A stretch of DNA of 64,000 nucleotides from the NCBI RefSeq assembly GCF_001886695.1, contig NZ_CP018097.1, positions 2,189,001-2,253,000 on the forward strand. The letters run 5' to 3'. Below the pieces are notes generated by a model that was given only the letters and a program-made list of their open reading frames with translations, had not been told where the DNA came from and did no database searches. The DNA comes from Aurantiacibacter gangjinensis (GTDB lineage: Bacteria > Pseudomonadota > Alphaproteobacteria > Sphingomonadales > Sphingomonadaceae). The position numbers were made by a program, and so were the translations under genes. This document shows, in pieces, positions 31,504 through 63,543 of this stretch (position 1 is the first letter of the stretch; each line of letters opens with the position of its first letter).

Positions 31504-32253
31504 TCAACGCATGGTCATGCCGCCATCGACGAAATACTCCGAACCGGTCACGTAGCTCGCGTGATCGCTGAGCAGGAAGAGGGCGACCTGCGCCACTTCC
31601 TTTGCTTCTCCCATCCGGCCCAGCGCGACGGAGCTTTTGATGCGGTCGATCATGTCCTCCTTCTCGTCCTCGTCGAGGCCCATGCCTTCGAAGAAGTTGG
31701 TGTCGATGGGCCCTGGCGCCACGGCGTTCACGCGAACATTGCGCGGCGCGAGGGCGCGGGCATAGGAGCGCGACAGAGCGAGATCGGCCGCTTTCGTCGC
31801 CGCATATACTGCGCCCTGAGGCTGGCCGAGATAAGGCGCGACCGAGCTGGTAAAGAGCACGGACCCGCCATCCTTCACCTCGTCCATCAGCGCGGCCATC
31901 TGCAACACCGGCCCGCGCACATTCACATTCATCATGTGATCGAACATTTCGGCATCGTTCTCGGATGGTTCGGCAAATTTGCCGTAACCGGCATTAAGCC
32001 AAAGCCCGTCGAGACCGTCCATCTGGTCTTTCACCTTTGCGGCAAGGTCTTTCGCCGCCTCGGGATCGCTCGCATCGTTGCGCAGCACCAGCGAGCCCTT
32101 GGGCAGGGAGCGGCCCGCTTCGTCGAGGTGGTCCTGGCTCGTGCCGGTCACGGCGACCTCGCCGCCTTCCTCGACGATCATCTTGGCCGCTTCGAGGCCG
32201 AAGCCGCTTGTGCCGCCGGTAATGAGGATGCGCTTGCCGTCGAACCTGTTCAT
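31504..32253 (-). CDS. Short-chain dehydrogenase/reductase (SDR), classical type
   Basis: 249-residue NAD(P)-dependent oxidoreductase. Cofactor loop TGGTSGFGLEAA, catalytic serine in LFTSSVAPYLG and the catalytic pair YAATK are present; LNAGYG stabilises the core and the C-terminal TGSEYFVDGGMTMR is typical. Residues VTGTSQ after the second strand suggest NADP(H) preference, but the substrate is unknown. ATG at 32253. It is a single-gene transcript closed by its own terminator. Confidence 0.9.
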   Translation of the reverse strand: MNRFDGKRILITGGTSGFGLEAAKMIVEEGGEVAVTGTSQDHLDEAGRSLPKGSLVLRNDASDPEAAKDLAAKVKDQMDGLDGLWLNAGYGKFAEPSENDAEMFDHMMNVNVRGPVLQMAALMDEVKDGGSVLFTSSVAPYLGQPQGAVYAATKAADLALSRSYARALAPRNVRVNAVAPGPIDTNFFEGMGLDEDEKEDMIDRIKSSVALGRMGEAKEVAQVALFLLSDHASYVTGSEYFVDGGMTMR

Positions 32254-61273: not shown

Positions 61274-62059
61274 TCAGGCGTCGGCCTTGGCCTCTTCCGC
61301 CTTGGGTTCCTCGGCAGCCGCTTCGGCGGGCGGTGCGTCCATGGCGCCGATGTCGGCACCTGAATCCACCACGCCTTCGGTCGAGCCGGTCGAGGCGGCT
61401 GCTGCGATCGCATCGCAATACAGGCGCACGGCGCGGCTGGCGTCGTCATTACCCGGGATCGGGAAAGCGATGCCGCTAGGATCGACATTGGTGTCGAGCA
61501 CGCCGATCACCGGGATGCCGAGCACGCCTGCTTCCTTGATGGCGAGGTCTTCCTTGTTGGCGTCGATCACGAACATCACGTCCGGAATGCCGCCCATGTC
61601 GCGAATGCCGCCCAGCGACATTTCCAGCTTGTCCTTCTTGCGCGTCAGCTGGAGGACTTCCTTCTTGGTCAGCAGGCTGGTGTCGCCGGCCAGCTTTTCC
61701 TCGAGGTTCTTCAGCTCGCGGATGGAGCCGGAGATCGTCTTCCAGTTGGTGAGCATGCCGCCCAGCCAGCGGTGGTTGACGAAGTGCTGGCCGCACGAAC
61801 GCGCTGCCTCGGCAATCGGCTCCTGCGCCTGGCGCTTCGTGCCGACGAACAGCACCTTGCCGCCTGCGCGCACGGTGGAGGACACGAAGTCGAGTGCGCG
61901 CGCCATCAGGGGCACGGTCTGCGACAGGTCGATGATGTGAACGCCGTTGCGCGCGCCGAAGATATACGGCTTCATGCGCGGGTTCCAACGGTGGGTCTGG
62001 TGGCCGAAATGTGCGCCGGCCTCGATCAATTGCTGCATCGTGACGGTAGGAGCCGCCAT
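61274..62059 (-). CDS. rpsB: 30S ribosomal protein S2
   Basis: 261-residue uS2: [43 protein letters not shown] and [11 protein letters not shown] are canonical. A low-complexity alanine/glutamate tail ([15 protein letters not shown]) extends the C-terminus. ATG at 62059. The roughly 260 nt upstream on this strand is non-coding and may hold an S2 autoregulatory leader; I see no defined structure with certainty. Confidence 0.97.
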
Positions 62060-62320: not shown

Positions 62321-62335
62321 GAACAGACGTGGAAC
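62321..62335 (+). promoter_or_regulatory. LexA (SOS) box 1, GAAC-N7-GAAC
   Basis: GAACAGACGTGGAAC matches the alphaproteobacterial LexA operator (GTTC-N7-GTTC on the other strand) exactly. It is the upstream of two sites, 34 bp apart, in front of the 66-residue gene at 62457. Confidence 0.7.
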
Positions 62336-62354
62336 AAAATTGCTTGACCAGCTG

Positions 62355-62369
62355 GAACATAGGTGGAAC
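62355..62369 (+). promoter_or_regulatory. LexA (SOS) box 2, GAAC-N7-GAAC
   Basis: GAACATAGGTGGAAC, a second exact match. A possible -35 element TTGACC (62344) precedes it, so LexA binding here would cover the probable -10 region. Paired sites are rare by chance and suggest tight repression. Confidence 0.7.
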
Positions 62370-62456
62370 AAAGGGTGCATGAACGGGGCGCAGCGGAACC
62401 GCGAAGTCACCCCGCAGGTTAATGCAGCGACCTCCGGGTCACGGAAAGGACATATA

Positions 62457-62657
62457 ATGGCTCTGGCATTTGCGATCTCGGTGTTCGTCGGCTTCGTGGC
62501 CGCGCTCGCCCTTGCTGTTTGCGCCGCGTCGCTGCGCTTCGCCCTTGCGCGTGGCCGTGAAGCTTATGCCGAATTGCAGGCGATCAATCGCGCTTCTTCG
62601 CCAAAGCCTGTTCGACTTCGTCGACCGCAAGAGGCTTTTGCGATGGCGGCGGTGTAG
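62457..62657 (+). CDS. Small single-TM protein under tandem SOS boxes
   Basis: 66-residue protein: one TM helix (LAFAISVFVGFVAALALAVCA, residues 3-23), then a basic amphipathic part ([20 protein letters not shown]) and a proline/arginine-rich tail. ATG at 62457 follows GGAAAGGA by 7 nt. It resembles in size and plan the SOS-induced division inhibitor SidA of Caulobacter, but no homology is claimed. The last 24 codons are antisense to the 3' end of pssA. Two LexA boxes lie 88-136 nt upstream of the start, a long leader. Other possibilities are a stress membrane peptide or a toxin. Confidence 0.6.
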   Translation: MALAFAISVFVGFVAALALAVCAASLRFALARGREAYAELQAINRASSPKPVRLRRPQEAFAMAAV

Positions 62658-63543
62658 CGCTCCCGTCGGCAGCAGCAGCCCGCGCGTTAGCCCGCCTTAT
62701 GCGGCCATAACCGATCGCCGCCCACGCAATCAGCGCCATATAGACGACTCCGATCAGGATCAGCGTCCACCACGTCTCCAACAACAGGCCGCCGACCATC
62801 AGGCCAGCCAAGGCAATCAGAGCCAGCTTCGCATCGCCCTTGGGCCGCAGCGATTTCCAACTTGGTGTGGCAATGCTCGATACCATCAGCAAGGCAATGA
62901 AGATGACCCAGGGCCCCACCAGCAATGGATCACGGAAAATATCTTGGCCGGTCGCCAGCCAGAGATACATGGGCATGAAAGCAAAACCCGCTCCCATCGG
63001 TGCAGGCACTCCGGTGAGATATCCGGCTTTCTTGCGCGGCCCGTCGTCAGCATCGATCTGCGCGTTGAAGCGCGCGAGGCGCAGCGCGCAGCAAATAGCG
63101 TAAGCCAGCGCCGCCAACCAGCCGAAGCGCGGCGCCTCGACCAGCGCCCAGAGATAGAGCACCAGCGCAGGCGCGATGCCGAACCCGGCGGAATCGGCGA
63201 GGCTGTCCAGCTCCGCCCCGAAGCGCGACTGCGCCTTCAGCAGCCGCGCAACACGCCCATCCATCGTGTCGAGAATGCCGGCAATAATCATGGCGAACAC
63301 GGCCTGCGGCCATTGCTCCGCCACGGCAAAAAGGATGCTGGTCAGCCCCGATGCAAGCGCAGCGGTCGTAATGGCATTGGGCAGCACGGCCCGCATCGAA
63401 AGCCCACGACCTCCGCGCGAACGGGTCACAAACTCGCCCTCGCTTGCCCGCGGACCGAGCCATGCAGGCCCCGGCGGTGCTGTGTCGTCCTGGTCGAAAT
63501 CGTCGGAAGGGTCGCCCCGGCCATCGTTTATATCGCCGCTCAT
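62584..63543 (-). CDS. pssA: CDP-diacylglycerol--serine O-phosphatidyltransferase
   Basis: Makes phosphatidylserine, the precursor of phosphatidylethanolamine. 319 residues, eight or so TM helices, with the CDP-alcohol signature in [14 protein letters not shown] through [14 protein letters not shown] 45-residue hydrophilic N-terminus and a C-terminal tail ([14 protein letters not shown]) extend the core. ATG at 63543 overlaps the psd stop (ATGA). Its 3' end is antisense to the SOS-box gene over 74 bp. Confidence 0.94.

Follow-up and report, generated by a model that had tools for sequence, protein, structure and literature searches.

The stretch of Aurantiacibacter gangjinensis DNA analysed here (the window; 64,000 nucleotides (nt), assembly GCF_001886695.1, contig NZ_CP018097.1, positions 2,189,001 to 2,253,000) carries a 66-residue open reading frame (ORF) between rpsB and pssA that has one hydrophobic segment and stands behind two LexA boxes. 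An earlier note on this DNA had described it as a single-transmembrane (TM) gene with a good Shine-Dalgarno sequence behind a pair of exact GAAC-N7-GAAC boxes 34 bp apart, start to start, and each of these elements was found. On the forward strand, the distal box GAACAGACGTGGAAC lies at 62321..62335 and the proximal box GAACATAGGTGGAAC at 62355..62369, both exact. A putative -35 element, TTGACC (62344..62349), precedes the proximal box by 11 nt, and a weak putative -10 element, AACAAA (62367..62372), overlaps that box and would leave a 17-bp spacer with the box inside it. The Shine-Dalgarno-like sequence GGAAAGGA (62443..62450) ends six bases before the ATG, and a similar motif is present in relatives. 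The ORF itself runs from 62457 to 62657 with its stop codon, and coding selection in relatives marks it as a gene for a small membrane protein. On its left the divergent neighbour is rpsB, for ribosomal protein S2 (61274..62059, reverse strand; Pfam PF00318, 1.1e-91). On its right the convergent neighbour is a pssA-like gene for a CDP-alcohol phosphatidyltransferase (62584..63543, reverse strand; PF01066, 9.4e-23), whose 3' end is overlapped antisense by the last 74 nt of the small ORF (62584-62657).

Conservation of box and ORF was examined by locating pssA in relatives and reading its 3' flank, the flanks being chosen by pssA and not by the box. ORFs were sought downstream of boxes, with an N-terminal TM segment as a condition of the ORF filter, and all counts take loci as they come, ignoring kinship. 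Within the genus, pssA was matched in 38 of 40 genomes (none in G005 and G006, a weak match only in G028); one locus (L083) ends at a contig edge, and 36 genomes, the window's own included, have a complete flank. In each of these 36 flanks an ORF with a TM segment at its N-terminus follows one or more exact boxes, and 35 of the flanks have two or more. When 297 genomes of the order were searched with a profile built from 33 of the proteins, 42 gave a match, of which 32 belong to other genera. In the best 20 of these 32 (12 weaker matches were left out), the gene is in every case flanked by rpsB and pssA and has an exact box no more than 140 bp upstream. Two of the 20, L107 and L108, encode proteins identical to rows of the profile. 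Forty further pssA flanks were read, of which 25 came from Sphingomonadaceae, in 24 genera other than that of the window, and 15 represent five families of the order besides this one. The former gave an exact box in 21, the ORF in 22 and both in 20, and a 23rd genome carries the gene away from pssA (L191); none of the latter 15 has an exact box at the pssA flank, that of L159 being short.

Taken together, 86 of 90 loci contain the ORF, and merging identical proteins (paired records of one genome) leaves 79 distinct loci. The four loci outside this set are L138, which has a box and a 52-residue ORF missed by the first ORF filter; L152, which stops at a contig end; L149, from an AT-rich genome (42% G+C), in which the box (973-987) stands where a gene read as RmuC-like begins and there is no small TM ORF; and L140, which has nothing at pssA. 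The genome of L140 (G164) carries the gene elsewhere, 3.9 kb from rpsB and beside an adk-like gene (L191:4686-5181), with the TTGAC element, the exact box and the terminal -Ala-Ala all kept. Genes read as restriction-modification-like lie between it and rpsB there. At least one exact box is present in 77 of the 79 distinct loci: 29 have a single box, 35 have a pair, 12 have three and one has four. The two remaining loci, L137 and L141, have boxes with one mismatch only. Thus the boxes persist where the ORF persists, a point the earlier note had proposed to check. The double arrangement it emphasised holds for the window, but the box conserved among relatives is the promoter one, 29 distinct loci having a single exact box. 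Likewise the 34-bp spacing is not a general feature, since only 26 of 62 neighbouring pairs are 33-35 bp apart, with 35 at 17-29 bp and one at 58 bp. The gene, which was also seen in records of Novosphingobium and Sphingobium, occurs in most Sphingomonadaceae genera examined and is not a lone candidate.

The number of boxes in the genome carries less weight. The genome, of 2.72 Mb, has as many exact sites (51) as sites of a reversed control pattern (51), and because exact boxes are no commoner than this control, the frequency of single boxes was dropped as evidence. The window contains three exact sites against a shuffle mean of 1.18, and 10 of 100 shuffles reach three. The third site (31957-31971) has a low score (2.6 bits), is probably intragenic and was taken as chance. 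The pair is unusual: every other pair drawn from the 51 sites is more than 1 kb apart, and simple arithmetic gives an expectation of about 0.09 site pairs within 100 bp. When 45 of the 51 sites (six on contig C2 were left out) were scored with a weight matrix made from 118 boxes of relatives' loci, unfiltered and with the window's own genome excluded, the proximal box ranked first and the distal box third. Other high-scoring boxes precede genes read as lexA (where there is a Peptidase_S24 match), recA, mmcB, uvrA, radA and two radical-SAM genes. A second Peptidase_S24 match besides LexA lies at G000:C1:2346361-2346708 (L190, L092), with an exact box about 550 bp off. As an argument for the reality of the boxes, we judge conservation to be stronger than these genome counts.

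The promoter arrangement is conserved with the box. In 71 of the 79 distinct loci an exact box is preceded by TTGAC at a distance of 10-12 nt, which is exactly 11 nt in 60 of them, and the spacing is found in all 36 genus loci. With the box at this distance from TTGAC, it fills the spacer between the -35 element and the putative -10 element, and LexA bound there would exclude RNA polymerase. Among other boxes of this genome, the one at uvrA shares this TTGAC spacing, whereas those at lexA, recA, radA and mmcB do not. The features expected of a LexA regulon member are therefore present, namely a GAAC/GTTC-N7 box that overlaps the promoter (the promoter being assigned by consensus only) and that is conserved with the gene, and the case for SOS control is as strong as sequence by itself allows. 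RNA sequencing (RNA-seq) of Sphingopyxis named lexA, recA, radA, dinG, imuAB-dnaE2 and others as SOS genes (PMC6472365), and the available text of that paper includes no such small gene among them. Within the available text of the literature searched we found no description of the gene.

As far as sequence can tell, the ORF is probably translated; the earlier note had named a lack of translation among the results that would refute its reading. The pooled ratio of non-synonymous to synonymous change (pN/pS) in its frame is 0.29 (26 pairs of close relatives, non-independent, outside the pssA overlap), indicating purifying selection. The two alternative frames gave 1.29 and 2.19, each from 27 pairs that are likewise non-independent. 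A Shine-Dalgarno-like motif precedes the start in 63 of the 79 distinct loci, compared with 14, 4, 14 and 18 of 79 at four shifted upstream controls. We consider the small ORF to be a real gene, probably under SOS control.

The encoded proteins share a simple architecture. The 79 distinct proteins are 55-94 residues long, with two further copies of 52 and 108 residues. Their hydrophobic segment starts at residues 1-7, none has a second hydrophobic peak, and the N-terminus is uncharged in 78. The net charge of the 20 residues that follow the TM segment is positive in 70, zero in six and negative in three. Since the N-terminus is uncharged and the region after the TM segment positive, the positive-inside rule suggests an N-out/C-in topology. 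In the window protein the TM segment comprises approximately residues 2-24 (codons 62460..62528) by hydropathy, inside a helix that AlphaFold2, run on seven sequences, models as one continuous element over residues 2-47 (mean predicted local distance difference test score (pLDDT) 82.6; residues 1-40 above 90 by ten-residue blocks). The remainder of this helix, residues 25-47 (62529..62597), is charged and predicted by hydropathy and model to be cytoplasmic; it includes Glu39, which is invariant in an alignment of 33 rows. Residues 48-66 (62598..62654) form a basic tail, modelled as flexible with a short helix at 57-65, that ends in -AAV.

Most members of the family end differently. Of the 79 distinct proteins, 57 have a terminal -Ala-Ala, and so do 21 of 23 representatives drawn from 22 genera; among 128 ORFs of 250 residues or more that were called mechanically in this genome, only five do. 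The transfer-messenger RNA (ssrA) tag of the same genome, ANDNEALAIAA, also ends in -AA, and in Caulobacter the C-terminal Ala-Ala of CdnL has been reported as a ClpXP degron of a common type (PMC10769358). Against the idea that this ending is a by-product of the pssA overlap, L141 and L191, the two copies found without the overlap, also end in -AA, although two copies are a small sample.

Searches of family and structure databases returned no consistent relationship. Among 33 members scanned against Pfam, PHROGs and NCBIfam no family recurred consistently. With expectation values (E) up to 0.1, 14 Pfam and eight NCBIfam families were matched, the best at 4.6e-4 and none in more than six of the 33, and neither SulA nor the YneA, SosA, ChiZ or DivS families were among these Pfam and NCBIfam matches. 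Matches to DUF6187 (Pfam; six of 33, best 0.0018) and to a Bestrophin-like family (four of 33, best 4.6e-4) look like generic hydrophobic matches and were rejected. The window member itself matches only VTT_dom, at 14.5 bits and below the cut-off of 33.9. A search of PDB sequences gave no match up to E 1.

The earlier note had compared the gene with SidA of Caulobacter. We take sidA to be CC1927, beside dnaE. In published descriptions dnaE is CC1926 (PMC1839093), sidA is CCNA_02004 of Caulobacter crescentus (PMC10769358), and SidA is a 29-residue SOS membrane protein that acts on FtsW (PMC4211646). The comparison stands so far as design is concerned, both being small single-TM proteins, SidA of the inner membrane, and the window gene sharing LexA boxes (control being judged by sequence only); it does not extend to length or to exact locus. 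SidA has 29 residues against 55-94 here (66 in the window). The sidA-type locus is just upstream of dnaE, whereas the window gene has rpsB and pssA as its neighbours, and dnaE of this genome is 128 kb away.

A possible positional link runs through rpsB. We read 20 rpsB regions from other alphaproteobacteria, of which 14 include dnaE sequence (L178 and L180 seem to be without the upstream end of dnaE). In four (L172, L176, L182 and L183) dnaE adjoins rpsB, and just upstream of dnaE an ORF of 32-47 residues with a hydrophobic segment stands behind an exact LexA box; two others (L169 and L175) have a box at the dnaE start without a SidA-like ORF. A gene read as a lolD-like ATP-binding cassette (ABC) gene lies upstream in L172, L176 and L183. 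SidA-type genes may therefore be wider than Caulobacter. These SidA-like ORFs are co-oriented with rpsB and were seen without the long charged tail of the window family, whereas the window gene is divergent and directly at rpsB. Other families of the window's own order supplied 17 rpsB regions, 15 of them with dnaE; in these no SidA-like ORF was found before dnaE, and the 600 bp before it contain no exact box (L196 ends there). Kinship of position with SidA through the rpsB landmark is suggestive only, and the gene may have replaced a SidA-like gene or descended from one.

Other known systems share parts of this design. DidA of Caulobacter, a DNA-damage-induced division inhibitor of 71 residues with one TM helix, acts on FtsN (PMC4211646); by description, it differs in being SOS-independent, under DriD, whereas the window gene stands under LexA boxes. 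The Gram-positive proteins YneA, SosA, ChiZ and DivS resemble the window protein as SOS-induced division inhibitors with one TM segment. The larger part of each of them lies beyond the membrane, on its outer side, whereas the bulk of the window protein is predicted to be inside. In Bacillus, YneA interacts with FtsW (PMC13396833).

Our preferred reading, to which we give a probability of roughly 0.55, is that the gene encodes a SidA-like division inhibitor that is repressed by LexA and likely cleared by proteolysis, its target being proposed from its architecture. In undamaged cells, LexA on the promoter box and on the extra box would keep the gene off. DNA damage would lead to RecA-triggered cleavage of LexA and so free a promoter with a good -35 element and a putative -10. 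The protein would insert as one long helix with its N-terminus outside and its basic tail on the cytoplasmic side, and through contacts between helices it would block a division protein, most likely in the FtsW/FtsI/FtsN septal synthase, in the manner of SidA in Caulobacter. The outcome would be that no septum forms over broken DNA. As LexA returned the protein would be cleared, and in relatives with the -Ala-Ala end ClpXP would do so. LexA boxes in the promoter, a membrane protein of one helix and, in many relatives, a likely signal for removal are together what may be expected of a transient inhibitor. A wider claim, which we put forward tentatively and consider doubtful as a whole, is that an undescribed SOS division checkpoint common to the Sphingomonadaceae replaced SidA beside rpsB, with a strong promoter held by LexA and, in most genera, an ssrA-like -AA off-switch through which ClpXP restarts division.

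Several observations weigh against the preferred reading. Outside the genus, TTGAC is at the right distance in only 15 of 21 representative loci, and the universal N-terminal TM segment is partly so by construction, because a TM segment was a condition of the ORF filter. The sequence diverges fast and we see no motif in it that points to FtsW. Expression, binding or phenotype data for the gene were not found in the available text of the literature searched. Because the window copy ends in -AAV, and the -AA end is found in no more than 19 of the 36 genus members, the degron may fail in this species, and the degron idea seems stronger for the family than for the window copy. SOS-induced one-helix peptides can also be toxins, as is DinQ. 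The suggestion of the earlier note, that the gene is a new SOS checkpoint effector, is partly supported: the boxes are conserved and the ORF is under coding selection, whereas a role as division inhibitor, toxin or membrane stress peptide remains a matter of inference.

The best surviving alternative takes up the last of these points. TisB is an SOS-induced one-helix toxin peptide, and both DinQ and TisB are shorter than the window protein. On this account, which we think unlikely although credible, the product is a membrane-active peptide of that kind, which would reduce the proton-motive force and make the cell slow down, giving tolerance, and would not act on the divisome. The small size, the single hydrophobic helix and the often several boxes all suit it, and in E. 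coli DinQ is an SOS-regulated toxic single-TM peptide whose gene has antisense small RNAs (PMC3567139). What fits less well is the rest of the protein: in the window family the TM segment is followed by a mostly charged stretch of about 40 residues, and proteins of 55-94 residues with a charged cytoplasmic helix and a tail are longer than is usual for peptides of this kind.

An SOS-induced membrane adaptor or regulator of some other envelope process (lipid synthesis, transport or a protease), not primarily division, is also improbable in our estimation. Nearly all copies found adjoin pssA, though the loci were mostly picked by pssA, and the invariant Glu39 could belong to a docking site; the gene in L191, however, lies away from pssA.

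It could further be supposed that the transcript matters and not the protein, an SOS-driven antisense RNA over the 3' end of pssA lowering pssA expression. The overlap itself is nearly constant, with 78 of the 79 distinct ORFs antisense to the pssA tail, and 77 of these 78 overlaps leave a remainder of two on division by three, so that the relative frame of both genes is kept. Its computed length, however, varies from 17 to 224 nt, it is absent in L141 and L191, purifying selection acts on the protein outside it, and a Shine-Dalgarno-like site precedes the ORF. We regard this account as very improbable, and a function by antisense alone was rejected on the coding selection, the Shine-Dalgarno-like site and the copies without overlap. 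That the boxes are unrelated to the ORF, or the ORF untranslated, might be argued from the chance frequency of single exact boxes in the genome, but with box, TTGAC spacing and frame conserved across genera we give it next to no credence.

The kind of protein proposed here, an SOS-controlled one-helix membrane inhibitor of division, is a known one, from which the present gene differs in that its length and locus are not those of SidA. Because their sequence diverges so fast, effectors of this sort are missed by sequence search, as the reach of the profile illustrates (42 of 297 genomes of the order). Position combined with the box recovered the gene at 22 of the 25 loci from 24 additional genera, and the combination offers a way to find others. 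As the gene occurs in most of the genera examined in the family, one deletion and one expression strain would make the question of its role in Sphingomonadaceae testable.
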